Shown in pieces: positions 13,261 to 27,901 of a stretch of DNA of 64,000 nucleotides. The notes below the pieces were generated by a model that did no database searches, was not told the DNA's origin, and worked only from the letters and a program-made list of their open reading frames with translations. Every line of letters starts with the position of its first letter. Within the stretch, counting starts at the first letter, position 1. This stretch comes from Acidobacteriota bacterium (GTDB lineage: Bacteria; Acidobacteriota; Terriglobia; Terriglobales; Acidobacteriaceae), in the NCBI GenBank assembly GCA_021846275.1, contig JAJZBZ010000002.1, positions 1 to 64,000 on the forward strand, written 5' to 3'. The position numbers and the translations under genes are program-made.

Positions 13261-13289
13261 AAACAGAACTGTCTGGAGGAATGAGCGGT

Positions 13290-14021
13290 ATGGAAATCCG
13301 ACCAGGAACGGTCTATCTGACAGGCACCGGGCCGGGCGATCCGGAGCTGCTGACGCGGCGCGCGCTGCATCTGTTGCGGGCTGCGGATGTGGTGCTGCAT
13401 GACGATCTGGTGGGCGACGCGATTCTGGCCGAGGCGCGCGCGGATGCCGAGCGCGTGAATGTGGGCAAGCGCTGCGGGACGAAGAAGATTACGCAGCAGG
13501 AGATCAACGAGTTGATGATTGCGCATGCGCGCGCCGGACGGATTGTGGCGCGCTTGAAGAGCGGCGATCCGTTGATCTTTGGCCGCGCCGGTGAAGAGAT
13601 TCGAGCGCTGCGGCGCGCGGGAGTTTCCTTTGAAGTGATTCCGGGAGTGACGGCTGCCTTTGCCGCTGCGGCGGCGTCGGGCTTTTCCATGACGGACCGC
13701 GGCGGAGCATCCCGCCTGGTGCTGGAGTCTGGCCACCACGCCGAGGAGCGAACGGAAACGCCGAGCGGGACAACCACGACGCTGGTGCGCTACATGCCGG
13801 GCAGTGATTACGAGCGGGTGCAGCAGGCGTTGATGAACGATGGATGGGATGCGGCGACGCCGGTATTGCTTGTTTCCTGCGCCGGGCAGCCGAAGCAGCA
13901 GATGGCGCGCACGACGCTGGGCCACCTGCGCGAGATTACGCCCTTGCCCGCGCCTGCGATTCTGCTGGTGGGGCAGGCGATTGCGATGGCGGACGGTGCA
14001 GTCGAGTCTGCGCAGATTTGA
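13290..14021 (+). CDS. cobA: uroporphyrinogen-III C-methyltransferase
   Basis: About 243 residues. SUMT adds two methyl groups from SAM to uroporphyrinogen III, giving precorrin-2 for siroheme (and cobalamin). Family motifs are VYLTGTGPGDPELLT at the N-terminus, VLHDDLV, GKRCG, LKSGDPLIFGRAGEE and the SAM-site VIPGVTAA. A downstream block that is usually THR-rich reads SGFSMTDRGGAS. The ATG at 13290 is preferred: GGAGGA lies 9 nt upstream, whereas it nearly touches the ATG at 13281. It is followed 30 bp later by the dehydrogenase gene, so the first two steps after uroporphyrinogen III are encoded together. Confidence 0.92.
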   Translation: MEIRPGTVYLTGTGPGDPELLTRRALHLLRAADVVLHDDLVGDAILAEARADAERVNVGKRCGTKKITQQEINELMIAHARAGRIVARLKSGDPLIFGRAGEEIRALRRAGVSFEVIPGVTAAFAAAAASGFSMTDRGGASRLVLESGHHAEERTETPSGTTTTLVRYMPGSDYERVQQALMNDGWDAATPVLLVSCAGQPKQQMARTTLGHLREITPLPAPAILLVGQAIAMADGAVESAQI

Positions 14022-14051
14022 CGAAGCACGGCAGCAGGCGAGGAGCAGGCG

Positions 14052-14687
14052 ATGGAAATGTTTCCGATGTTTTTGAAGCTGGAGGGACGCGCGTGTCTGG
14101 TGGTGGGCGCGGGCACGATTGCAGCGCCGAAGATTGAGAGCCTGTTGCGCGCAGGAGCGCGGGTGACGGTGGTGGCGCCAGAGGCAAAGCCGGCGCTGAG
14201 CGAGATGGCGGCGCAGGTTCGCTGGGTGCGGCGCGAGTTTGAAGCAGTGGATCTGGACGGAATGTTTCTGGCGATTGCGGCGACGGATCGGCAGGCGGTG
14301 AACCATGCGGTGGCCGAGGAAGCGCGTCGGCGCGGGATTCTGTGCAACTCGGTGGATGATCCGCCGGACTGCGATTTTTTCTATCCGTCGGTGGTGCGAC
14401 GGGGCGAACTGCAGATTGCGATTTCAACGGCGGGCAAAAGCCCCGCGCTGGCGCAGCGGCTGCGCGCGGAGATTGATGCGGCGATTGACGAAGAGATTGG
14501 CCAGTGGCTGGATCAGGTGGGCGAAATCCGGCTGAACATTCTGGCGCGGTTTGCGCCGTCCGATGCGCGCAAGGCGGCGCTGCATCTGCTGGCGCAGCGC
14601 GAGGTCTGCGAGCCGAGCGATTGCCCCGTGCAGGCGCTGCTGCGGGACGCGCCGAAGGTTGCCGCGACGGAGAAACCCGATCAGTAG
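14052..14687 (+). CDS. precorrin-2 dehydrogenase (siroheme synthase N-terminal domain, Met8/SirC type)
   Basis: A 211-residue protein matching the NAD-dependent dehydrogenase half of CysG. A Rossmann motif CLVVGAGTIAAPKIESLL is at residues 16-33. LAIAATDR and CNSVDDPPDCDFFYPSVV follow, and a C-terminal helical domain comes after STAGKSPALAQRLR. It oxidises precorrin-2 to sirohydrochlorin. Met8-type members also chelate iron and SirC-type members do not. I cannot decide which applies here, and no separate sirohydrochlorin ferrochelatase is seen nearby. It overlaps the convergent gene at 14681 by 7 bp. Confidence 0.88.
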   Translation: MEMFPMFLKLEGRACLVVGAGTIAAPKIESLLRAGARVTVVAPEAKPALSEMAAQVRWVRREFEAVDLDGMFLAIAATDRQAVNHAVAEEARRRGILCNSVDDPPDCDFFYPSVVRRGELQIAISTAGKSPALAQRLRAEIDAAIDEEIGQWLDQVGEIRLNILARFAPSDARKAALHLLAQREVCEPSDCPVQALLRDAPKVAATEKPDQ

Positions 14688-15202
14688 AGGTTGTCGGCGA
14701 TCTGTTCGGCGGCAAGCTCAAGCTGAGTGGGTCGGGCGGCTTCGTCGGGCCAGCGCGGCGGAGGATTGCGCAGGCTGGCCTGAGGCAGGCCCGTGGCATC
14801 GAGCGCGAACCAGCGGGTGCGGACCTGGCCGACGATGCGTGTGACTGCCATGCGCGTGATTGCGCTGGCGGAATCATGGTCGGTTGAAGCAGCGAGGACG
14901 CACTCTTCGGCGTGGTTGCCGATGCCGCGCAGCGGCGTTGCATTGCTGTCACAGGCGGCGACCGGGTGAGCTGTGACAGTGAGGATCAGCGATGGAACTG
15001 AGGTGGAGTTGGCTGTTGTTTGCGGCTGAAAACGGCAGCTTCCGGTGCCGTCGTCGGCAAGCTGCACGCGAACAACGGCAGACTCACCGAGCAGGTGAGA
15101 GACGGTTCCGAGCGTGAGCCACGGACACGGCGCAGGCGACTGCGCGCGAGCAAGTGGCGCGACGGCAAGCAGCAGCGCGAGGCAGGCGACCAATCGCGTC
15201 AT
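14681..15202 (-). CDS. small secreted protein of unknown function
   Basis: 173 residues with a clear signal peptide (ACLALLLAVAPLARAQS). The mature part has four cysteines (PCPW, GSCRF, AACDS, EECVL) spaced as if in two disulfides, and is otherwise Thr/Ala-rich with no motif I recognise. Its ATG overlaps the stop of the upstream CRTAC gene (TGATG), so translation is probably coupled. It is the last gene of the cytochrome/CRTAC operon. A weak similarity to DUF3558-type exported proteins is only an impression. Confidence 0.7.
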   Translation of the reverse strand: MTRLVACLALLLAVAPLARAQSPAPCPWLTLGTVSHLLGESAVVRVQLADDGTGSCRFQPQTTANSTSVPSLILTVTAHPVAACDSNATPLRGIGNHAEECVLAASTDHDSASAITRMAVTRIVGQVRTRWFALDATGLPQASLRNPPPRWPDEAARPTQLELAAEQIADNLY

Positions 15203-17106
15203 CAGCCTTTGCTTCCATTGGGCGGTGCGGCGAGTGGGCGCGCGGGCGTGAGCGCGGCCGATTGCAGGATCGTGCCGCCTTCCTGGAATACGTAGAGGCG
15301 ATTCACGTCGAGGTCGCGGAAGTGGTCGATCTGTCCGCTGAGCCAGCGCACCTGAATCTGGGTGATGCGCGTGGCGCGGTCGAGGCCGAAGTGAAGACGC
15401 GGGTCATTCTGAGAAAAATAGCTGCCGCCGCTGCGCAGTTCATCGATCTGCACGAGCGGGCGCTCGGCGGCGGGGTCGGTCTGCGCGGTGACGATGACTT
15501 TGCTGCCGATGCCGGAGCGGTTGGATTTGGTGCCGACCAGGCGAATCTTGACCCAGTTGCGCTTCCATGTGGAGTCGCAGCGAAGCAACTGCGGACGCCA
15601 GTTGATGCAGTTGACGACGACATCGATGTTGCCGTCGTTGTTGTAGTCGCCGAAGGCGCAGCCGCGCGCGGGAGCGTTCTCCAGGATGCCGGGTCCGCCC
15701 TGGCTGGTGACCTCTTCGAATCGTCCGTTGCGGAGGTTGCGATAGAGGTATTTGTGTTCGGCGTAGCGGAGATCGGATTTGGTGAGATCGACCTCCGGAT
15801 AGACGTGGCCGTTGGACATGAGAATGTCGGGCCAGCCGTCGTTGTCCATATCGAAGAATCCGACGCCCCAGCCGAGCAGACGCGTGTTGACGCCGAGTCC
15901 GCCCGGGTAGGTGTGATCCTCGAAGTTGGCGTCGCCGAGATTGGTGTAGAGCGAGTCGGTGTCGCCGGCGAAGTTGGTCTTGACGACGTCGAAGTTGCCA
16001 TCGCGGTTGTAGTCGCCGATGGAGACGCCCATGCCGGCCTGGGGCTTGGCTTCGGCGGAGAGCGCAGCGCCGGACTCGACGGCGATGTCGCGGAAGGTTC
16101 CGTCTTTCTGGTTCTGGTAAAGCGTGGCCGGCGCGGAATCGTTGGCGACGTAAATGTCAGGCCAGCCGTCGCCGTCCAGATCGGAGGCGGCGACGCTGAG
16201 TCCGTAAGTGCCGATTGCGCTCCACATGCCTGCTTTTTCACTCACGTCGGTGAAGGTGCCGTTGCCGTTGTTGTGGTAGAGAATGTTTTTCCCGCCAGGC
16301 AAGCCGGGCGGACCGCAGGCGACGAGCACGCCCTTGTAAGTGCAGGGACCGTCCTCGGGCAGCGGCGCGGTCTTCAGGTCAAAATCAACGTAGTTGGCGA
16401 CGAAGAGATCGAGATGGCCGTCGCGGTCGTAATCGACGAAGGTGCAGCCCGTGTTCCAACGGATTTTCGGTCCCGGCTGAATGAGTCCCGCCTGCTCGGT
16501 GACGTTGAGGAACTTGCCATTGCCGAGATTCCGATAGAGCGCGTTCTGGCCGTAGTAGGTGACGAAGAGATCGTCGAGGCCGTCGTTGTCGTAGTCGCCG
16601 ACGCAGCAGGCCTGTCCCCAGCCGGTTTTCAGCTCCAGTCCGGAGCCGATGGAGACGTCGGTGAAGGTGCCGTCACGGTTGTTTTTGAAGAGGCGGCAGT
16701 GCGGCTCCTGGCCGCTGGGAAAGCCCTCAAGACGCCAGCCGTTGACGAAGAAGAGATCAATCCATCCGTCATGATCGTAGTCGTAGAATGCGACGCCGCA
16801 GCCGGTGGTTTCAAGCAGATATTTGTTGTGCAGTTCGCCGCCGTAGATGGTTTTTGCGTTCAGGCCGGATTGCACGGCAAGATCGACGAAGCTGAGGCCG
16901 AGCGGCGTGCCTTCGATGGGCGACTTCGGTCCGGGCGGCGGCGGCGCGGCGACGGCATCGTAGCTGCGCTCCTGTGGCCCGATCTTTGCGGGTGCGGGCG
17001 ACTGCGCTGGTGCCGGACTCTGAGGCATGGCTGCGGCGAGCAGGTCATCGAGCGACACGACGAGCGCGGTGCGGCTGAGCGATTGAAGAAAGCGGCGACG
17101 ATTCAC
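15202..17106 (-). CDS. Tat-exported CRTAC/ASPIC-UnbV FG-GAP repeat protein
   Basis: 634 residues. The N-terminus NRRRFLQSLSRTALVVSL is a twin-arginine signal. After a Pro/Ala-rich linker come six to seven FG-GAP/VCBS-type propeller repeats with Ca2+-binding loops such as YDYDHDGWIDLFF, GDYDNDGLDDLFV, VDYDRDGHLDLFV and FFDMDNDGWPDIL. The C-terminal 100 residues are the ASPIC/UnbV domain (SGIGSKVIVTA, then DPRLHFGLDRATRITQIQVRWLSG). No enzymatic residues are apparent. The bacterial family is poorly characterised. Tat export suggests folding, possibly with cofactor, before secretion. It starts 45 bp after the pentaheme cytochrome-TPR gene and is coupled to the small secreted protein. Confidence 0.88.
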   Translation of the reverse strand: MNRRRFLQSLSRTALVVSLDDLLAAAMPQSPAPAQSPAPAKIGPQERSYDAVAAPPPPGPKSPIEGTPLGLSFVDLAVQSGLNAKTIYGGELHNKYLLETTGCGVAFYDYDHDGWIDLFFVNGWRLEGFPSGQEPHCRLFKNNRDGTFTDVSIGSGLELKTGWGQACCVGDYDNDGLDDLFVTYYGQNALYRNLGNGKFLNVTEQAGLIQPGPKIRWNTGCTFVDYDRDGHLDLFVANYVDFDLKTAPLPEDGPCTYKGVLVACGPPGLPGGKNILYHNNGNGTFTDVSEKAGMWSAIGTYGLSVAASDLDGDGWPDIYVANDSAPATLYQNQKDGTFRDIAVESGAALSAEAKPQAGMGVSIGDYNRDGNFDVVKTNFAGDTDSLYTNLGDANFEDHTYPGGLGVNTRLLGWGVGFFDMDNDGWPDILMSNGHVYPEVDLTKSDLRYAEHKYLYRNLRNGRFEEVTSQGGPGILENAPARGCAFGDYNNDGNIDVVVNCINWRPQLLRCDSTWKRNWVKIRLVGTKSNRSGIGSKVIVTAQTDPAAERPLVQIDELRSGGSYFSQNDPRLHFGLDRATRITQIQVRWLSGQIDHFRDLDVNRLYVFQEGGTILQSAALTPARPLAAPPNGSKG

Positions 17107-17151
17107 GAAAGGACTCCAGCCAGATCAGAATTGACGATCAGGGGCTCGGCT

Positions 17152-19608
17152 TCATGGGTTGGGTTGGCTTGCTGTGGATGGGGAGCAACTGGTGGCGGCA
17201 TGGAGCGCAGAGGGCGCGGGTTTGTCTTCGTGAACGTGCCAGGGATCGCTCTCGATGGAGATTTCCGGATGGCGGCGCAGATAGCTGAGCGAGTAAGTGG
17301 GCGCGCCCGGATCGATGCGTTTGATGGTGTACTGCTCGGCCTCAAGTCGGGCGAGATCCTTGCGGCCCGTGCGGCGATAGAGGATCGAAAGATTGTAGTG
17401 CGCGGCCAGGTCGTCGGGGTCGATGGCCTGGAGCGCGCGAAACTGCGCGATGGCCTGCTCAGGGTGGTGCTGCTGATAGAGCGAGATGCCAAGCTCACGG
17501 CGAGCGTCGCGGCACTCGGGGTATTGCGCGACGACCTGCTCCAGATCGGCTAGTTCACGCTGGGAGTGGCGCTGGCGACGCTCGACAAGCGCAAGGTAGT
17601 AGAGCGCGCGAGCATCGCCGGGGTGGATGGAGAGAGCTTTTTCAAGCGGCATGCGCGCGTTGGCGTAGTGCTCCCAGTCGATGTAGGCGAGGCCAAGATT
17701 GATCCAGCCGTCTGTGTAGTCGGGGCGCAGGGCAAGCACGCGCTGAAATGCGAATTCGGCCTGCGGATACTGGAGTTGATCGAGCAGCGCGATGCCGAGA
17801 TTGTTCCATCGCATCCAGTCCTCGTTTTGCTTCTGGTTTTCGAGCGCCTCCGGCTGGTTCTGGCCGGGCTGGTTCTCGCCGATGCGAATGGTTCGCGTCT
17901 CGGACGCGAGTACGACGACCGGATACGCGGGGTGGTCCTTTCCGAGAACGTTGTTCAGATAGGACTGGCGCAGGTGACGGTAATCGACGCGCGCGGTGAG
18001 ACGCAGCGTGCCGACAAGGTTGTCTGGGACGCGGAAGCGGTAGCGCACCAGCGTGGAGCTGCCGGACTGGATGGTATTGTCCCAGGCGTTGGAGTGGATG
18101 GCCCAGACTTTGTGATTGTCGACGAACTCGCCTGTCACATCGACGGGGCGATTGGTGAAGCTGTGCGCGCCGCGTTCGAGCGAGAGATCGGGACGCAGAT
18201 AGCCGCTGTGAAAGAGTGTTTTGCCGACGGCATCGGTGACGGTGAATTCAACCCATGCCTGATAGAGATCGCGCACCTCGGGAATGAGCGAGTGGCCGAT
18301 GCCGGTGTTCTGGACGACGACCCAGGCATCGACGACGCGACCGGCGGGAAGCGTGAACGGCTGCGAGCCAAGCGGCGCGGCTAGGTGCATGGCGTCGTCC
18401 GCGCCTGTGTTGTCGGTGCCGACACGCTCGGCATTCGTGTCCTCCGGTCGCGCGGTTTTGGTTTGCATTGCGCCGAAGGCCGCGTCGTGAATGCGCAGCG
18501 CGAAGATGTCGACGTTGAGAAATTGTCCGCTGCGCAGGAAGGCGATGGTCTGCTGCAACTGGCGGTCATAGCCGTAGTGGAACGGGACAGCGGTGTTTCC
18601 GGCGAGCCAGCGATGGGAGGCGAAGCTGCCGTTTTTCGCGCCCGGCTCGGGCAGCGCGGCCTTTGCGCGCGGCATGTGGCAGCTCTGGCAGGTCTTCTGG
18701 TCGGCGGTGTAAAACGTGAGCGGATTCTGGTGGGAGAATTTGGACAACTGCCACTCGTCGAAGGTGCTGAAGGCGCGCAGCCATTTGTAGTCGTTGAGCA
18801 TGGCCGGAAAACTGGCCTTGTGACAGACGGCGCAGAACTCCGCCTGATGATAGAGCGGCTGCATGACGGCTTTGGAGTGGCGGTCGAGATGAGCAAGAAT
18901 CTCGGCATCGGGAACGCGACCGGGAATGCGGCGACCCGATGCATCGACAAGCACCGAAGGAATGCCGAGCACAAAGCTGCCGTTGCCCTCGCGCGAGGCG
19001 ACGGCCTGTATGGAATGGCAGACCATGCAGGTGACGCCATCGTGCTCGAAGGGGCGATCGATGGGAGCGACGGGATTGAGCGCGCCGGCGAAGACGCCGA
19101 TGGGATCGTGGCAACTGTCACAGTGCCGCGCGTACTCCGGCCCCTTGGTGCGGAGCAGGATGTTGACGCTGTTGCGATAGAACGGCGCGCGAAAGGCGTT
19201 GGCGTGCAGTGACTGACGCCACTGATGGTAGGCCTGCTGATGGCAGTGTCCGCAGTAGGCGGCGTCAGGATAAGCACTGGCGGGCAGGAACTGATTGCCC
19301 TCGATGACGGCGTTGCCGGGCAGCGCGATGTTGTCCTTGACGAAGGGAAAGCTGTAACTGGCGCGCGTCTGCTGGTCGTATGCGCTCGGTGAGGTTGCAT
19401 CGGGCGCGGCGCTGGCTGTTGCATTCGGCGCGATGCTGGGAGTGGTGCCTGTTGAAGCGGTGCTGGCCGGAATGCTCGCAGCACTCGATGCGTTCGCGGC
19501 TTCTCGGGCTGGATTGCCGTAGGCTTGCCCCGCGCTCCGCGCGACCGGGTGCAGGGCGAGCGCGAGGGCTGGCAGAACGAGGAAAAACCGATGGGACGGA
19601 CGGCGCAT
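17152..19608 (-). CDS. pentaheme cytochrome c fused to TPR repeats
   Basis: About 818 residues from the ATG at 19608, which begins the signal peptide (RFFLVLPALALALHPVARS). After a Ser/Ala/Thr-rich linker there are five CXXCH heme-attachment sites near residues 119 (CGHCH), 163 (CDSCH), 194 (CMVCH), 259 (CAVCH) and 307 (CQSCH), a pattern like cytochrome c554/multiheme families. A beta-rich middle region follows, then four to five TPRs from about residue 600 (NNLGIALLDQLQYPQAEFAF and similar). The protein is expected in the periplasm or on the outer surface as an electron-transfer protein whose TPRs bind a partner. It is cotranscribed with the CRTAC gene. An earlier in-frame ATG at 19677 is less likely. 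Confidence 0.87.
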   Translation of the reverse strand: MRRPSHRFFLVLPALALALHPVARSAGQAYGNPAREAANASSAASIPASTASTGTTPSIAPNATASAAPDATSPSAYDQQTRASYSFPFVKDNIALPGNAVIEGNQFLPASAYPDAAYCGHCHQQAYHQWRQSLHANAFRAPFYRNSVNILLRTKGPEYARHCDSCHDPIGVFAGALNPVAPIDRPFEHDGVTCMVCHSIQAVASREGNGSFVLGIPSVLVDASGRRIPGRVPDAEILAHLDRHSKAVMQPLYHQAEFCAVCHKASFPAMLNDYKWLRAFSTFDEWQLSKFSHQNPLTFYTADQKTCQSCHMPRAKAALPEPGAKNGSFASHRWLAGNTAVPFHYGYDRQLQQTIAFLRSGQFLNVDIFALRIHDAAFGAMQTKTARPEDTNAERVGTDNTGADDAMHLAAPLGSQPFTLPAGRVVDAWVVVQNTGIGHSLIPEVRDLYQAWVEFTVTDAVGKTLFHSGYLRPDLSLERGAHSFTNRPVDVTGEFVDNHKVWAIHSNAWDNTIQSGSSTLVRYRFRVPDNLVGTLRLTARVDYRHLRQSYLNNVLGKDHPAYPVVVLASETRTIRIGENQPGQNQPEALENQKQNEDWMRWNNLGIALLDQLQYPQAEFAFQRVLALRPDYTDGWINLGLAYIDWEHYANARMPLEKALSIHPGDARALYYLALVERRQRHSQRELADLEQVVAQYPECRDARRELGISLYQQHHPEQAIAQFRALQAIDPDDLAAHYNLSILYRRTGRKDLARLEAEQYTIKRIDPGAPTYSLSYLRRHPEISIESDPWHVHEDKPAPSALHAATSCSPSTASQPNP

Positions 19609-19722
19609 AGAAAAACCACCCACGCTTCTGGCGGCAACCTGGCCAAATGGCTGCGCAGCGCGTGGCAATGCAGCCATCCTATCGGAGCGCTGAGCGGTCT
19701 GACAATACGCAGAGACGCTGGT

Positions 19723-21278: not shown

Positions 21279-24200
21279 ATGGCGGCGCGTGTTCGACTGC
21301 TGGTGATGCGGATGGCGATTGGCAAAGGTGGGCGGAAAACCCTGCTGCGAGCGGCTGGGCGGATTCGGATGCGCGAAATCTCGACGGGTGCGATGCTAAG
21401 GATGACTACGCTCTGGCTGTTCGCGTCATGCTGCGCAGCGCTGGCACTGCAACCGACGAATTCTCTGGCCGCGCTGAGCGCGCAGAACTGGACCATCGAA
21501 AATGGCCTGCCGCAGAATACCGTGACAGCGCTCTATCAGTCGCCGGATGGATACCTGTGGATTGGCACGGAACTAGGGTTGGCGCGCTTCGATGGCAGCC
21601 GGTTTTTTCTGATCAGCCACGCAGGCACGGCGAATTTTCCGGACGCGGAGATTCGCGTTTTGCTGGCGATCGAGGCGGGTGGTGCGAGCGATGCGCTGGC
21701 CGGGCTGTGGGTGGGCACCGACGACGGACTGGTGCTCTGGCGCGACGGACAGGCGAAGCGATTCGGAAAGAATGAGGGACTACCGGGCGAGCAGATCCAC
21801 GCGCTGGTCGCGGCGGCGAACGCGCTCTGGGTGTGGGGTGATGGCGGCCTGGCGATGACGCGGGATGGACGCAGGTTTCACGTCGTTCCGTTGCCGGACG
21901 CCTCGGACGCGATCACTTCGCTGTTCTCGCATGCGGGCGCGGTGTGGGCGACGACGACGCGAGAACTCTTTCGCTGGAGCGACGGCAAATGGGATCTGGT
22001 TCAATCGTCGGCGACGCCGCTGAGCGTCTCGCGGGAACCGGCGGAGACTGAAACGAACGTGCAGGCTGGAGAAGTTTATACGGCGAACGGATCGGCGGTG
22101 AACGAGATTGCGCAGGGTCGCGCAGTTGCGATTCCGATGGATGCGACGCTGCTGGGCGCGATGCTGCTGCGCAACGGCGTGCAGCAGGTGTCGGAACCAG
22201 AGCAGGGATGGCTTGCGCTGGCCAGCGCGGACAGCCTGTTTCTTCTGCATCGGGAGGACGGCGCGCGGACGGAGTATCGGCTGGCGGCGCGGTATCGATG
22301 CGGGGCGGAGTTGCCAGGCGCGCGAATTGAGACGGTCTATCGGGATCGCGAGGGCGCGCTGTGGATTGGGACGAATCGCGGGCTGGCGCGGTGGTTTCAA
22401 GGGACACTGGAACGGATGCCGGAGCGGAATCCGATCTCGCGCGAGGCGATTCTGTCGGTGCTGGAGGATCGCGAAGGCTCGATCTTGCTGGGCACCGAGA
22501 CGGGCGGGCTGTACATCCTGCGGGATGCGCGTTTTCATTTCCTGGATGAAAGCGATGGGCTGAGCGCGGCGGATACGACGGCGATTGTGGAAGCGGGCGA
22601 TCACAGTCTGTGGGTGGGCACGCGGGAAAACGGATTGAATCAGATTTCGGAGCAACGGATTTCCCAGGTCGGAATTTCGCAGGGAGCGAGTGCACCGGGC
22701 CGGACATTCACGACTGCCAACGGGCTGCCGAGCAATGTGATTCTGGCGCTGTCGGCCTCGCGCGACGGCTCCGTGTGGGTGGGCACGCCGGACGGGCTGA
22801 GCCGACTGCGCGGGCACACGCTGACGACGATCACGGCTGCCGACAATCTGCCGGATGATTTTGTGCGATCGGTCTACACGGCGCGCAACCAGATGGTGTG
22901 GATTGGCACGCGGCATGGATTGTCCTGCCTGGACCCAACCCCGGCTCCGACGCGCGCGAAGAACCCGATCCAGACATGGGTGATCGTGAATGGACTGGGC
23001 AGCGACATGATCGGCGCAATGACGGAGGATCCGGCGGGAACGCTGTGGGTGGCCACGTTCAACGGGCTGGCGCGGCTGCGGATGGCGGCCTCGGGGTGTG
23101 GGATCATGGGCGGCATTCGCAATTTCACGACGGCGAATGGACTCTCCGGCAACGTGATTACGGCGCTGGCCGCCGACAGCGGTCGGCTGTGGATTGGAAC
23201 GCAGGGCCAGGGGCTGAGCCTGCGCAGCGGGAATGAGTTTTTCGCTCTGCCGTCGGCGCTCGGGCAGCGGCTTCCGAAGACGATCCACGGGTTGATGGTG
23301 GATGGAGCGGGGTTTCTGTGGATGACCTCCGATGACGGCATCTATCGCGCTCGCGCGGCGGAGATTGCAGCGGCGATGGCGAGGAATAGCGCCGCATCGG
23401 CGATCCGTGTGGAGCACTTCACGACGAGCGACGGGCTGCGCAGCCGGGAGATGAGCAGCGACAGCCATCCGACGATTCTGCGCGCCAGCACGGGCCAGTT
23501 GTGGTTCACGACGCCGCGCGGACTGGTCTCGGTGAACGCCGAGCACTTCGGTCCGATGCCCTCGCCGCCGCCCGTTGTGCTGGAGGATTTTCTGGTCGAT
23601 GATCTTCCGCAGCGGATGCACGACGGGTCAGCGAAGACGATTCCTGCGGGTCATCTGCGATTTGAATTCGATTACGCGGGGCTGAGCTTCGCAATGCCGC
23701 AGAGCGTGCAGTACGCCTATAAACTGGAGGGATTTGACCGCGACTGGACCTATGCCGGAAATCGCCGCAACGCCTACTACACGAATATTCCGCCGGGACG
23801 ATACCTGTTTCGCGTGCGCGCGTTTCTGCGGAGTCCGAAGTATGGCGGACGGTGGACGGAGACGCAAGTTGCATTTCGGCTGGCGCCGCATCTCTACCAG
23901 ACCGTCTGGTTTTACCTTGTGCTGCTGGGCGCGCTGGCCGCTGCCGTGCTGCTGATCCTGCGCTGGCGGCTGTATCTGACGCGGCAGGGCTTTGAGGCGA
24001 TCATGGCGGAGCGCAACCGGATTGCGCGCGAGATTCACGATACGCTGGCGCAGGGGTATGTGGGTGTTTCGGTGCAACTGGAGGTGCTGGACGAGATGCT
24101 CAAGCGCCAGCGCGTGGAGGCGGCGGCTGGCCAGTTGCAGCGGCTGAAGACGCTGGTGAGCGAGGGCCTGGAGGATGCGCGGCGATCCATCTGGGCGCTG

Positions 24201-24677
24201 CGCTCGCAGGACGCGAGCGAGCAGACGCTGCCGGTGAGGCTGAAGCGGCTGGCCGAGAAGATGACCGCCGCCGAGACGCGGACAACAGTCGATATTCACG
24301 GGGCGACGCGCGTGCTGAGCGCCGAGGTTGAGGACGAGTTGCTGCGGATTGCGCAGGAGGCCGTGCAGAACGTGAAGAAGCACGCCCGGGCGCGGCATCT
24401 GGCACTGCGGCTGGAGTACGATGAGAGCACGGTTGTGCTGACCGTCACAGACGATGGATGCGGATTTCCGGCTACCCTGCTGCAAGCTGGTGGTCCATCG
24501 TCGCCCGCCGGGCACTACGGGCTGATTGGCATGACGGAGCGCGCGGAAGGAATCGGAGCAACGATGGAGATCACGAGCGAGCCGGGCAAGGGGACGACGG
24601 TGAGGATTACGCTGTCTGACGCGACGACGGGACGCAACGCGGCGACCTCCCGGAACGATGGAAGGAGTCAATCGTGA
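21279..24677 (+). CDS. hybrid-type propeller sensor histidine kinase (reg_prop, Y_Y_Y, HisKA_3)
   Basis: Up to 1132 residues. After an N-terminal signal region (TTLWLFASCCAALAL) come two-component-regulator propeller repeats, beginning NWTIENGLPQNTVTALYQ and recurring as LWIGTNRGLARW, VWVGTPDGLSRL and LWIGTQGQGLSL. They form a periplasmic double propeller up to about residue 740. Then follow a Y_Y_Y domain (YAYKLEGFDRDWTYAG), one membrane segment near residue 890, and a HisKA_3 kinase with His920 in AREIHDTLAQGY. The ATPase boxes are VQNVKKHARARHLAL, VTDDGCGFP and HYGLIGMTERAEGIGA. These sensors often detect polysaccharide fragments; the ligand here is unknown. The start is uncertain: ATGs at 21369, 21393 and 21405 are also in frame. 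Confidence 0.9.
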   Translation: MAARVRLLVMRMAIGKGGRKTLLRAAGRIRMREISTGAMLRMTTLWLFASCCAALALQPTNSLAALSAQNWTIENGLPQNTVTALYQSPDGYLWIGTELGLARFDGSRFFLISHAGTANFPDAEIRVLLAIEAGGASDALAGLWVGTDDGLVLWRDGQAKRFGKNEGLPGEQIHALVAAANALWVWGDGGLAMTRDGRRFHVVPLPDASDAITSLFSHAGAVWATTTRELFRWSDGKWDLVQSSATPLSVSREPAETETNVQAGEVYTANGSAVNEIAQGRAVAIPMDATLLGAMLLRNGVQQVSEPEQGWLALASADSLFLLHREDGARTEYRLAARYRCGAELPGARIETVYRDREGALWIGTNRGLARWFQGTLERMPERNPISREAILSVLEDREGSILLGTETGGLYILRDARFHFLDESDGLSAADTTAIVEAGDHSLWVGTRENGLNQISEQRISQVGISQGASAPGRTFTTANGLPSNVILALSASRDGSVWVGTPDGLSRLRGHTLTTITAADNLPDDFVRSVYTARNQMVWIGTRHGLSCLDPTPAPTRAKNPIQTWVIVNGLGSDMIGAMTEDPAGTLWVATFNGLARLRMAASGCGIMGGIRNFTTANGLSGNVITALAADSGRLWIGTQGQGLSLRSGNEFFALPSALGQRLPKTIHGLMVDGAGFLWMTSDDGIYRARAAEIAAAMARNSAASAIRVEHFTTSDGLRSREMSSDSHPTILRASTGQLWFTTPRGLVSVNAEHFGPMPSPPPVVLEDFLVDDLPQRMHDGSAKTIPAGHLRFEFDYAGLSFAMPQSVQYAYKLEGFDRDWTYAGNRRNAYYTNIPPGRYLFRVRAFLRSPKYGGRWTETQVAFRLAPHLYQTVWFYLVLLGALAAAVLLILRWRLYLTRQGFEAIMAERNRIAREIHDTLAQGYVGVSVQLEVLDEMLKRQRVEAAAGQLQRLKTLVSEGLEDARRSIWALRSQDASEQTLPVRLKRLAEKMTAAETRTTVDIHGATRVLSAEVEDELLRIAQEAVQNVKKHARARHLALRLEYDESTVVLTVTDDGCGFPATLLQAGGPSSPAGHYGLIGMTERAEGIGATMEITSEPGKGTTVRITLSDATTGRNAATSRNDGRSQS

Positions 24678-25321
24678 ACCAGGCGATTCGCATACTGATT
24701 GTGGAGGATCATCACGTTGTCCGACAGGGGCTGGCCGCGCTGCTGAGCGTGGTGGACGGGATGCACGTTGTGGGCGAGGCAGCCGATGGCGAAGCGGCCG
24801 TGACGCAGTGGAACAGCCTGCGGCCGGATATTACGCTGATCGATCTGCGGCTGCCGAAGCGCAGCGGAGTGGAAGTGATTCAGGCGATCCGGCGTCGCGA
24901 AGGCTATGCGCGATTCATTGTGCTGACGACCTTTGATGGCGACGAGGATATTTATCGCGCGTTGCAGGCCGGCGCGCGGGCCTATCTGCTGAAGGGCATG
25001 ACGGCGGAGACGCTGGTGACGACGATCCGACAGGTGCATGCGGGAAAATCCTGCATTCCGCCGGTGATTGCGCAGAAGCTGGCCGAGCGCATGGGAGCCG
25101 AAGAGCTGACGCATCGGGAGCAGGACGTGCTGGAACAGATCGTGAGCGGCAAGAGCAACAAGGAAATTGGCACGGAGCTGGAGATCAGCGAGGCGACCGT
25201 GAAGACGCATATCAACAGCCTGCTGGGCAAGCTGGGCGTCTCTGACCGGACGCAGGCGGCGACGGCGGCGATCCAGCGCGGACTGGTGCAACTGGATACG
25301 ACGGGAGATATTCGCCGATGA
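24674..25321 (+). CDS. NarL/FixJ-family response regulator
   Basis: 215 residues starting at GTG, overlapping the kinase stop by 4 nt (GTGA) with GGAG upstream. The receiver has the acidic VEDHH, phospho-acceptor Asp57 in DITLIDLRLPKRSG and a Lys in YLLKGMTAETL. A LuxR-type helix-turn-helix is at the C-terminus (LTHREQDVLEQIVSGKSNKE, then ISEATVKTHINSLLGKLGV). It is the cognate output of the propeller kinase. Coupling continues into the next gene through an ATGA overlap. Confidence 0.95.
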   Translation: MNQAIRILIVEDHHVVRQGLAALLSVVDGMHVVGEAADGEAAVTQWNSLRPDITLIDLRLPKRSGVEVIQAIRRREGYARFIVLTTFDGDEDIYRALQAGARAYLLKGMTAETLVTTIRQVHAGKSCIPPVIAQKLAERMGAEELTHREQDVLEQIVSGKSNKEIGTELEISEATVKTHINSLLGKLGVSDRTQAATAAIQRGLVQLDTTGDIRR

Positions 25322-25905
25322 GAGGGATGACCGCGAAGCCGGTTCCACCGATGCGGCCACTGGCCGCCTGGACTCGGCTGCTGGCAATTTGGACACTGTC
25401 GCTGGCTCTGCTGGCCGCGTGGGCGCTGCCACTGGCGGCGGCTGGCACGCACGCAGTGTGGCGCAAGGCGACGGATGCCGAGCTGAGCGCCGTTCTGCCG
25501 CTGCGCGCGCCGGTGGAAAAAGAGCACATCGAAACCGAGATGCGCACGGCGAGCGGGATCACGGACGGCGAGGGACATTTCATTGCCGGGGTGGTGCTGA
25601 TTACGGCCGGCTACTCGGCGGATGGCAAGTATTCGCACTATCTTTTAGTCCAGTCGCCGATGAAGATGGGCGCGGTGGAACTGCGGCCGGGGCAATATAT
25701 CTTTGGCTGGGAGCGGGACGGCGACGCGATCCGGCTGCATGTGCATGAGGCCGTATCCGGCAGGCTGCTTGGCTATGTGGAGGCGCATCGCGCGCAGGCG
25801 GGAACGCGCGTGGAATCGCTGCGCATCTGGCAGGCGGAGCCGGGCACGAGCGCAGAGTTGCAGATCGGGCGCTTCGTTGTGGACTGCACATTGCAGGGCA
25901 ACTGA
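25318..25905 (+). CDS. secreted protein of unknown function in the sensor operon
   Basis: 195 residues. A signal peptide (LAIWTLSLALLAAWALPLAAA) is followed by about 145 residues predicted by eye to be beta-rich, with VVLITAGYSADGKYSHYLLV, ELRPGQYIFGWERDGDAIRL and a C-terminal RFVVDCTLQGN. I do not recognise a family. The start overlaps the regulator stop (ATGA), so it is probably translationally coupled to the two-component pair and could be an accessory periplasmic component. This role is inferred from position only. Confidence 0.75.
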   Translation: MRGMTAKPVPPMRPLAAWTRLLAIWTLSLALLAAWALPLAAAGTHAVWRKATDAELSAVLPLRAPVEKEHIETEMRTASGITDGEGHFIAGVVLITAGYSADGKYSHYLLVQSPMKMGAVELRPGQYIFGWERDGDAIRLHVHEAVSGRLLGYVEAHRAQAGTRVESLRIWQAEPGTSAELQIGRFVVDCTLQGN

Positions 25906-25983
25906 GCATTTGCTCCGCTCAGCTTCAGGCAAACATCTGTCTTTCTCCATCGAACGGTCGATACCGGGCCGAAGCTCGGACCG

Positions 25984-25989
25984 TATACT
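25984..25989 (+). promoter_or_regulatory. extended -10-like TATACT directly upstream of the second CRTAC gene
   Basis: TATACT ends 7 nt before the ATG at 25997, so transcription would begin at or next to the start codon. The best -35-like element is TCGATA (25958-25963) with a 20-nt spacer, which is poor. No Shine-Dalgarno sequence lies between. This is the arrangement seen at leaderless mRNAs in other phyla. It is suggestive, not proven. Confidence 0.4.
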
Positions 25990-25996
25990 GGCGTGC

Positions 25997-27901
25997 ATGC
26001 GTTTCGTATCTGGATTTTCTTCGAGCCTTCCCCTTGTTGCGTCCTTTGCCGTTTTCCTTGCCGCCGTCTCCGTTTGCCCGCGCGCGCTCGGCGCGCAGAG
26101 TGCATCGACCGGCAAGCCGGCGGACCAGACGATGAGCGGCACCCCGCAGTCGCAAACTGCTCAGCCGAAAACTGCTCAGCCGCAACTGGACAGCAAGGGA
26201 CGCCCGATCACCGAGGGCGGATTCGTCACGAGCGGGCCGGTGATCTTCGAGGATGTCTCCGAAAAGGCCGGGCTGACGCACTGGACGCATACGATGGGCA
26301 CGCCGGCGAAGACCTACATCATCGAGACGAAGGGGTCGGGTGTTGGGCTGATCGATTATGACAACGACGGATGGCTGGATATTTACGTCGTGAACGGCTC
26401 GACCGTGGACGCGCTGACGGGCAAGGCGACGCCACCCCATGCGGCGCTGTTTCACAACAACCACGACGGCACGTTTACCGACGTGGCTGCGAAGGCTGGC
26501 GTGACCAACGATCGCTGGGGATTTGGCGTGGCGATAGCCGACTATGACAACGATGGCTGGCCGGACATCTTCGTCTCGAACTTCGGCAAGAACCGGCTCT
26601 ACCACAACAATCACGACGGCACGTTCACGGACGTGGCTGAAAAGGCCGGAGTGACGCTGGGCAACTGGTCGTCGGGCGCGACGTGGGGCGATTACGACGG
26701 CGATGGGCGGCTGGACCTGTTCGTGGCCGGGTATCTGCACTGGGACTGGAATCACCTGCCGCAAAGCTCGGACCAGAACGCATTCTGCACCTTTCGCGGC
26801 GAACAGGTGGCCTGTGGTCCGCGCGGACTGGAAGGCGAGCCGGATCACCTCTTCCACAACAACGGCGACGGCACCTTTACGGACGTGAGCGAAAAGGCAG
26901 GCGTCTCCGATCCGGCGAAGTATTACGGGCTGGGCGCGGTCTTTGCCGACATCAACAATGACGGCAGGCCGGACCTGCTGGTGGGCAACGACTCGACGCC
27001 GAATTATCTCTACCTGAACAAGGGCGACGGGACATTTGAGGATGTGAGCTACGCCTCGGGCTATGCGCTGGATCAGGCCGGGCACGAGACGGCTTCGATG
27101 GGCATTGCCGTGGGCGACTACCAGAACAACGGGCTGCTGGATGTTTTTAACACGACCTTTTCCGACGACTACAAGCCGCTCTATCACAACGAGGGCGACG
27201 CGAACCTGACCGACATCAGCGACCAGACGGGACTGGGCGAGATTACCGTGCCGTTCCTGAGCTGGGGCGACGCGTTTTTTGACTACGACAACGACGGATG
27301 GAAAGACCTGATGATGAGCGATGGACACGTCTTTCCGCAGGCGGACAAATACAACTGGGGCACGAGCTGGAAGGAGCGGCCGATGCTCTTTCACAACATT
27401 GCGGGCAAGCGATTCGAGCCGGTTCCCGCAGTCGAAGGCACGGGACTGGCGGACGTGATCGCCGGGCGCGGCATGGCCGTGGGCGACCTGTTCAACGACG
27501 GCAAAATGGATGTCGTCATCAACGTGATGGACGGGCATCCGGTGCTGCTGCGCAACGTGAGCCAGGACCACAATCACTGGCTGGAGATGAAGCTCGTCGG
27601 CACGGGCAAAAGCCCGCGCGATGCCGTGGGCGCGGTCGTCTATCTGACGGCGAACGGGATGCGGCAGCGCGAGGACGTGCTGAGCGGCGGCAGCTATCTT
27701 TCGTCGAACGACCAGCGGCCACACTTCGGACTGGGACAGGCGACGACCGTCGACCGGCTCGAAGTTCATTGGCCGGACGGAAGCGTCGAGAGCTTTGCCG
27801 TGCCAGGCGTGGACCGCATTCTGACCCTGACCGAGGGAATGGGAACCGCCGTTCCAGCTCCGAAGGCCAGCCCGACCACCGCCGAGGCGACCAGGCCCTG
27901 A
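25997..27901 (+). CDS. exported CRTAC/ASPIC-UnbV FG-GAP repeat protein (second copy)
   Basis: 634 residues, the same length as the CRTAC protein at 15202-17106 but clearly diverged. It has a Sec-type signal (LPLVASFAVFLAAVSVCPRALGA) instead of a Tat signal. Propeller repeats carry Asp-rich calcium loops such as IDYDNDGWLDIYVV, ADYDNDGWPDIFV and GDYDGDGRLDLFV. The stretch HNNHDGTFTDVA recurs between them. The C-terminal ASPIC/UnbV domain includes DAVGAVVYLTANG, SSNDQRPHFGLGQATTVDRL and LEVHWPDGSVESF. The start is the first ATG after the TATACT element. The open frame upstream to 25703 overlaps the preceding gene and is not coding. It follows the propeller-sensor operon after 91 bp. Confidence 0.87.
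   Translation: MRFVSGFSSSLPLVASFAVFLAAVSVCPRALGAQSASTGKPADQTMSGTPQSQTAQPKTAQPQLDSKGRPITEGGFVTSGPVIFEDVSEKAGLTHWTHTMGTPAKTYIIETKGSGVGLIDYDNDGWLDIYVVNGSTVDALTGKATPPHAALFHNNHDGTFTDVAAKAGVTNDRWGFGVAIADYDNDGWPDIFVSNFGKNRLYHNNHDGTFTDVAEKAGVTLGNWSSGATWGDYDGDGRLDLFVAGYLHWDWNHLPQSSDQNAFCTFRGEQVACGPRGLEGEPDHLFHNNGDGTFTDVSEKAGVSDPAKYYGLGAVFADINNDGRPDLLVGNDSTPNYLYLNKGDGTFEDVSYASGYALDQAGHETASMGIAVGDYQNNGLLDVFNTTFSDDYKPLYHNEGDANLTDISDQTGLGEITVPFLSWGDAFFDYDNDGWKDLMMSDGHVFPQADKYNWGTSWKERPMLFHNIAGKRFEPVPAVEGTGLADVIAGRGMAVGDLFNDGKMDVVINVMDGHPVLLRNVSQDHNHWLEMKLVGTGKSPRDAVGAVVYLTANGMRQREDVLSGGSYLSSNDQRPHFGLGQATTVDRLEVHWPDGSVESFAVPGVDRILTLTEGMGTAVPAPKASPTTAEATRP

Follow-up and report, generated by a model that had tools for sequence, protein, structure and literature searches.

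A three-gene unit on the minus strand of an acidobacterial genome joins a pentaheme cytochrome c, a protein of the CRTAC (ASPIC/UnbV) family and a small secreted protein. The unit lies at positions 14681-19608 of the window, i.e., the 64,000-nucleotide stretch of contig JAJZBZ010000002.1 (assembly GCA_021846275.1) analysed here, and its genes are called CYT, CRTAC and SMALL. The unit is real and is found in many acidobacteria. The best explanation, held with a little less than even confidence, is that an exported redox module is encoded here: CYT would be the electron carrier, its tetratricopeptide repeat (TPR) domain would hold CRTAC, SMALL would be an accessory, and the complex would pass electrons. 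The c552 fold, the TPR and the CRTAC are each already known, and their combination appears undescribed, as no description of it was found in the literature searched, which mostly left out subscription papers. What is new here, judged by sequence comparison, is a class of CRTACs, including that of the window, marked by one signal motif of the twin-arginine translocation (Tat) kind and by up to eight extra conserved cysteines.

We know of no established role for bacterial ASPIC/UnbV (CRTAC) genes, matches to which number ten in the 3.3-Mb genome of the window and are present in 17 of a phylum-wide sample of 40 genomes. The operon gives a defined handle on these proteins, namely a recurrent partner that has visible hemes and a TPR domain of the kind found beside many CRTACs. 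The cysteine-rich class is a place to look directly for a cofactor.

The features of the unit are as follows.

17152..19608, minus strand: CYT gene, pentaheme c-type cytochrome with a beta-rich middle and C-terminal TPRs; secretion predicted
19240..19254, minus strand: heme site 1, CGHCH
19108..19122, minus strand: heme site 2, CDSCH
19015..19029, minus strand: heme site 3, CMVCH
18820..18834, minus strand: heme site 4, CAVCH
18676..18690, minus strand: heme site 5, CQSCH
18163..19206, minus strand: span of the candidate distal heme ligands H158, H267, H355, H462 and H505 (841-aa numbering)
17308..17823, minus strand: CYT TPR domain, approximate limits (Pfam matches and structure model)
15202..17106, minus strand: CRTAC gene, FG-GAP propeller and ASPIC/UnbV, multi-cysteine class
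17023..17106, minus strand: predicted twin-arginine signal peptide NRRRFLQSLSRTALVV..., end approximate (twin-arginine motif shared with relatives)
15577..16800, minus strand: span of the eight class cysteines C103, C137, C167, C168, C221, C483, C500 and C510
15292..15513, minus strand: ASPIC/UnbV domain (Pfam)
14681..15202, minus strand: SMALL gene, secreted protein with a predicted Mog1/PsbP/PknH-sensor-like fold

Layout and conservation of the unit

The first-pass annotation of the window described three minus-strand genes with 45-bp spacing and a TGATG overlap, and this layout was confirmed. CYT starts with the ATG at 19608 and stops at 17152 (a longer in-frame open reading frame, or ORF, begins at 19677), CRTAC starts with a GTG at 17106, 45 bp beyond the CYT stop, and the ATG of SMALL, which encodes 173 aa, overlaps the CRTAC stop codon.

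Within the family, 99 of 150 genomes have relatives of CYT (E ≤ 1e-20), among them a longer type of ~960 aa; across the phylum, 41 of 149 sampled genomes have relatives (E ≤ 1e-60). Synteny was examined in 80 named loci, which were the best of 557 relatives and hence close ones; L167, which lacks the heme part, was dropped, so that 79 were scored. A gene counted as a neighbour if it was on the same strand and the model matches were separated by <300 bp (downstream side) or <400 bp (upstream side). By this definition, CRTAC is a neighbour of CYT in 54 of the 79 loci, being downstream in 26 and upstream in 28. A downstream SMALL is present in 39 loci, all of which belong to these 54 rather than to the 25 others; the loci are mutually related and the counts are not independent. 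As CRTAC adjoins CYT in 54 of 79 loci while the 3.3-Mb genome has ten CRTAC matches, the adjacency is far from chance. Conservation of neighbours across genomes had been set beforehand as a test of the first-pass proposal, and with CRTAC at 54 and SMALL at 39 of the 79 loci it goes beyond chance.

CYT and SMALL form one fused protein, with SMALL at the end, in L147, L148, L055 and the second copy in the window's genome (on C8). About 4 kb from that second copy lies a gene for a DmsE-family decaheme cytochrome (L051:1079-2068, at ~379-380 kb of C8; TIGR03508, 249 bits, above cut-off), with an alpha-glucosidase-like gene on one side; this decaheme type has no counterpart among the other loci scanned and was rejected as a part of the unit.

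On a tree, the clade of the window consists of CYTs with a CRTAC and mostly with a SMALL (L152 ends inside CYT). In the sister clade, no SMALL match was found and a CRTAC is present in only some loci. In sixteen loci, which by their names belong to the sister clade, the CYT match is followed at 12-153 bp by a gene for a monoheme cytochrome c, with or without a CRTAC, and this supports an electron-transfer role for CYT.

Distant relatives of CYT in other families tend, on their sequence matches, to lie near CRTACs too: by eye and among the matches listed, such a relative is ≤4 kb from a UnbV match in six of the nine other genomes that have listed matches of both kinds (G013, G150, G162, G166, G172 and G178; not G156, G157 or G164). 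The distant ~960-aa relatives L108, L109 and L110 have adjacent CRTAC genes and, by eye, several N-terminal hydrophobic segments with conserved histidines. The N-terminal stretch of these three could be a membrane b-heme domain.

Two candidate additions to the unit were rejected. Matches of ~1.6 kb to 'cyt' upstream of CYT are not a second cytochrome, as they form a cluster of proteins with TPRs only, and no CXXCH is present in its representative. The siroheme genes at 13281-14687 are absent from the neighbour families seen in at least eight loci. One of them, a convergent siroheme-synthase-like gene (14052-14687, plus strand), overlaps SMALL by 7 bases at their 3' ends (14681-14687).

The pentaheme cytochrome and the small protein

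The first-pass description of CYT as a five-heme cytochrome with C-terminal TPRs holds. There are exactly five CXXCH motifs (CGHCH, CDSCH, CMVCH, CAVCH and CQSCH), a Pfam match to Cytochrome_C554 (E 1.2e-8) and Pfam TPR matches that fall in residues 624-793 of the 841-aa ORF. A match to Mtrc-MtrF_II-IV is marginal (31.1 bits against a cut-off of 30), and the N-terminus, MRRPSHRFFLVLPALALALHPVARSAGQ, is Sec-like by eye. The five hemes of CYT and the twin-arginine motif of CRTAC are not chance features, because both recur in relatives.

Outside the CXXCH motifs, five histidines of the heme/beta part (H158, H267, H355, H462 and H505) are invariant in an alignment of 15 sequences that extends to 28% identity with that of the window, and likewise in 75 close CYT sequences. 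H814 and H816, after the TPRs, are also invariant in the 15, and H522 is additionally invariant in the 75. Five bis-histidine hemes would need just five such histidines. All five hemes of CYT are probably ligated in this way, with the five histidines of the heme/beta part as the putative ligands. A structure model of residues 80-841 (predicted template modelling score, pTM, 0.86) consists of a heme/beta part followed by a TPR array. Its top Foldseek match is 5ZE8, a penta-heme cytochrome c552 (E 7.7e-10), to which it aligns over 337 residues with Z 15.7 at 3.6 A, and the heme part is predicted from this model to have the penta-heme cytochrome c552 fold.

SMALL has five cysteines, of which C7 is in a signal-like stretch and C26, C56, C84 and C101 lie beyond it. 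The mature protein thus has four cysteines, as in the first-pass reading of a small secreted four-cysteine protein, with secretion predicted, and all four are kept in at least 90% of 39 members. No match of SMALL to Pfam or NCBIfam was found at E up to 0.1; the 39 members gave ten weak Pfam matches, each in one member and none to DUF3558. The structure model (pTM 0.80) aligns with Z 10.5 to 3v7b, 9.8 to 4esq and equally 9.8 to the immunity protein Tsi3 (4n7s). Foldseek matches are weak, the best (E 1.8e-3) being to Tsi3, with nothing below 1e-3. The predicted fold of SMALL resembles that of Mog1, PsbP and the PknH sensor.

A proposed exported redox module

In the redox module proposed here, CYT would be a multiheme electron carrier, in which a head of the c552 type, serving electron transfer rather than catalysis, is joined to a TPR domain. 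This domain would dock the beta-propeller of CRTAC, and separate TPR proteins may do likewise for other CRTACs. The occasional fusions of SMALL to CYT would place it, as an accessory subunit, on the CYT/TPR side. From the gene content, its conservation, the fusions and the export motifs, taken with the predicted folds, we infer that the three proteins form a periplasmic or outer-membrane-associated complex. By passing electrons, this complex would link a partner or substrate, bound by CRTAC, to the respiratory chain or to a small cytochrome c; the direction of flow and the nature of the substrate are conjectural. The first-pass annotation had already suggested that the TPRs dock CRTAC and that electrons pass through the hemes. 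This interpretation is partly supported: the pairing of TPR and CRTAC gains from genome context beyond the operon and from TPR-CRTAC fusions, and docking and electron flow keep their conditional form. The multi-cysteine class, the Sec-type CRTACs of sister loci, the CYT-SMALL fusions and the lack of any general CRTAC-multiheme adjacency go beyond that annotation.

Several findings weigh against such a module. CRTAC is not a neighbour of CYT in 25 of the 79 loci; nine of the 25 end within 2.5 kb of the gene, and the rest include most of one sister sub-clade and the third CYT copy of the window's genome, on C5. Therefore, CYT can do without CRTAC. No CRTAC match was found in the 14.5 kb around the C5 copy, which is directly followed by an ORF with a single CXXCH. 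Across the phylum, an ORF with at least three CXXCH lies beside a CRTAC in 4 of 40 loci, hand-picked from the matches listed, compared with 2 of 20 control regions (p 1.0); the four are a floor, as the CYT relative G172:C197:24086-25528 lies just outside one sampled stretch. With this absence of enrichment, the idea that CRTACs are general partners of multiheme cytochromes was rejected. Nor was any ORF with at least three CXXCH found at 21 loci where a CRTAC of the multi-cysteine class lies away from CYT. Finally, the TPR of CYT has only ~30% similarity to those of neighbouring TPR proteins. Similarity of ~30% is ordinary for TPRs.

What accompanies CRTACs elsewhere

The more general companion of CRTACs seems to be a TPR protein. 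A separate TPR ORF lies beside the CRTAC in 22 of the 40 phylum-wide loci, compared with 4 of the 20 controls (p 0.013), and in 16 of the 21 class loci away from CYT, compared with 2 of 20 controls (p 2.5e-5); of these latter controls, which represent 12 of the 21 genomes, one holds a CRTAC. The two are also fused in a single protein in L110 and in 3 of the 40 phylum-wide loci. A heptaheme-TPR protein directly adjoins a CRTAC in all three loci where it was seen, which were retrieved because they are near CYT, and in L065 a class CRTAC lies beside a heptaheme-TPR gene, away from the CYT operon. Read from gene order, the heme head may have been added to a core formed by the TPR-CRTAC pair. Such additions may have happened more than once, because the heptaheme-TPR protein also adjoins CRTAC.

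The TPR association can also be taken in another way: CRTAC and its TPR partner would together be part of an uptake or secretion system of the outer membrane, where the pentaheme head would be either incidental or present for a different purpose. A TonB-receptor-like protein (OMP_b-brl_4/CarboxypepD_reg, assigned from the Pfam matches of one member) is found at 14 of the 21 class loci away from CYT, compared with 3 of 20 controls (p 0.0013), as would suit such a system together with the frequent TPR ORF. However, of 80 CYT neighbourhoods only 16 have the receptor-like protein, a rate close to that of the controls, and all five hemes are retained in the CYT head throughout the aligned family, as are the candidate ligands. 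An uptake or secretion system is unlikely.

Other genes were noted near CRTACs. A protein of ~899 aa with a signal-like start lies beside the class CRTAC in 9 of the 21 loci (e.g. L102:9261-11957); no match was found for one member in Pfam or for another in NCBIfam. The window has a second CRTAC (25703-27901, plus strand), without the eight cysteines and without a twin-arginine match, and just upstream of it are genes that by eye are histidine-kinase-like and response-regulator-like (21279-25321). On C8 of the same genome, at ~412.6-417.9 kb, there is a hydrazine-synthase-like cluster (L104:9608-14921), which comprises a protein matching HZS_alpha (E 2.7e-14, one stretch of 55 residues, above cut-off), a CRTAC and a beta-gamma-fusion-like protein (NF052342, E 1e-44, far below its cut-off).

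The multi-cysteine class of CRTACs

As the first-pass annotation had it, CRTAC is an FG-GAP/ASPIC-UnbV protein with a twin-arginine signal. Both domains are above cut-off in Pfam (FG-GAP_3, six stretches, E 2.5e-53, 179 bits against 26.9; UnbV_ASPIC, E 2.6e-19, 69.3 bits against 23.4). The N-terminus carries the RRxFL Tat motif, and Tat export is predicted; TatC and cytochrome c assembly proteins are encoded in the genome of the window. Among the CRTAC neighbours of CYT, the twin-arginine motif, usually in the form RRxF(I/L)xSLSRTALVLPF, is present in all 26 of the downstream type, compared with 2 of the 27 of the upstream type, three of which (L140, L166 and L177) have no true N-terminus on view. 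The switch between the downstream Tat type and the upstream Sec type requires at least two changes on the tree, or one if only well-supported branches are counted.

The eight cysteines follow the same division. They are present in the downstream type (n=24), whereas the upstream type (n=25) is nearly without seven of them and has C500 in about half; the cysteine pair C255 and C264 is common to both. Among 208 distinct CRTACs, at least five of the eight are present in all 72 with the class signal motif and in 2 of the 136 others, one of these two (L268) being matched only from query residue 43. A looser twin-arginine pattern is found in all 38 CRTACs with seven or eight of the cysteines, compared with 8 of 125 with five or fewer. 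In 65 ungapped class sequences, C103 and C168 are invariant, followed by C221 (98%), C510 (94%), C483 (92%), C500 (91%), C167 (89%) and C137 (85%). By a reading of the repeats, the core cysteines C103, C168, C221 and C510 would sit in neighbouring blades of the propeller. The residues specific to the class also include polar ones (N94, R125, R144, Q165, Y184, K376 and K452 among them). The association of signal and cysteines suggests either a cofactor or disulfides peculiar to the class.

A class CRTAC might thus be a redox protein itself, its cysteines holding a metal, an iron-sulfur centre or another cofactor that would be put in place in the cytoplasm, ahead of Tat export, with CYT as its electron partner. 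Besides the co-occurrence of signal and cysteines by both patterns and the near-invariance of the core four, this would agree with the class-specific polar residues, which suggest a binding site, and with the class CRTAC beside a heptaheme-TPR protein in L065. It is nevertheless rather unlikely. The 21 class loci away from CYT showed no multiheme ORF, the CRTAC at sister CYT loci is of the Sec type and lacks most of the class cysteines, and Tat-like signals also occur on CRTACs that lack these cysteines (L105, where a good twin-arginine signal goes with none of the eight, and, by eye, L085 and L100). C168 and C221 are present without the other six in 12 of the 136 non-class CRTACs. C167 and C500 are lost together in 5 of the 65 ungapped class sequences, which argues for a pair, as in a disulfide; C137 is missing alone in six class CRTACs and C483 in three, which argues against simple disulfide pairs for these two. 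Furthermore, the class cysteines cannot be essential to CYT itself, because one CYT clade pairs with either kind of CRTAC. It is quite unlikely, too, that the CRTAC of the window represents an unknown class of cofactor-bearing, Tat-exported beta-propeller whose cysteines hold a metal or iron-sulfur centre wired through the TPR-linked pentaheme cytochrome.

A role of CRTAC in the assembly or folding of multiheme proteins that are exported would fit its presence beside three multiheme types (CYT, heptaheme-TPR and hydrazine-synthase-like, the last both here and in PMC12758564) but is improbable, as 36 of the 40 phylum-wide CRTAC loci have no ORF with at least three CXXCH.

Comparison with known systems

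The exported redox module put forward above can be set beside several known systems. The penta-heme cytochrome c552 of Thermochromatium tepidum (5ZE8) is like CYT in its five hemes and in the fold of its heme/beta part; identity is 15-19%, and the 385-residue chain of 5ZE8 is too short for the TPR part. This cytochrome reportedly has low redox potentials, and we know of no CRTAC paired with it. NrfA, the cytochrome c nitrite reductase, has a catalytic CXXCK heme site, whereas CYT has five CXXCH and no CXXCK. The outer-membrane decaheme cytochromes MtrC and OmcA have ten hemes, compared with five in CYT.

Human CRTAC1 (9etn) shares the FG-GAP propeller and the ASPIC/UnbV domain with the CRTAC of the window, and the sequences match over residues 285-593 (E 7.3e-15). 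The CRTAC of the window differs in being bacterial, in its twin-arginine motif and in its operon with a cytochrome; its eight cysteines are extra relative to other bacterial CRTACs. The model of SMALL is like the fold of Mog1, PsbP, LpqN and the PknH extracellular domain, and no Pfam match is common to more than one of the 39 SMALL members.

CYT has no match to HZS_alpha (PF18582) at E up to 0.1. In PMC12758564, a CRTAC1-family gene lies within hydrazine-synthase-like clusters of clades I-III. These clusters are the nearest report to the CYT-CRTAC-SMALL unit: CRTAC stands next to heme-protein genes in both, the cytochromes differ, and the cluster of L104, in the same genome as the unit, resembles those reported.

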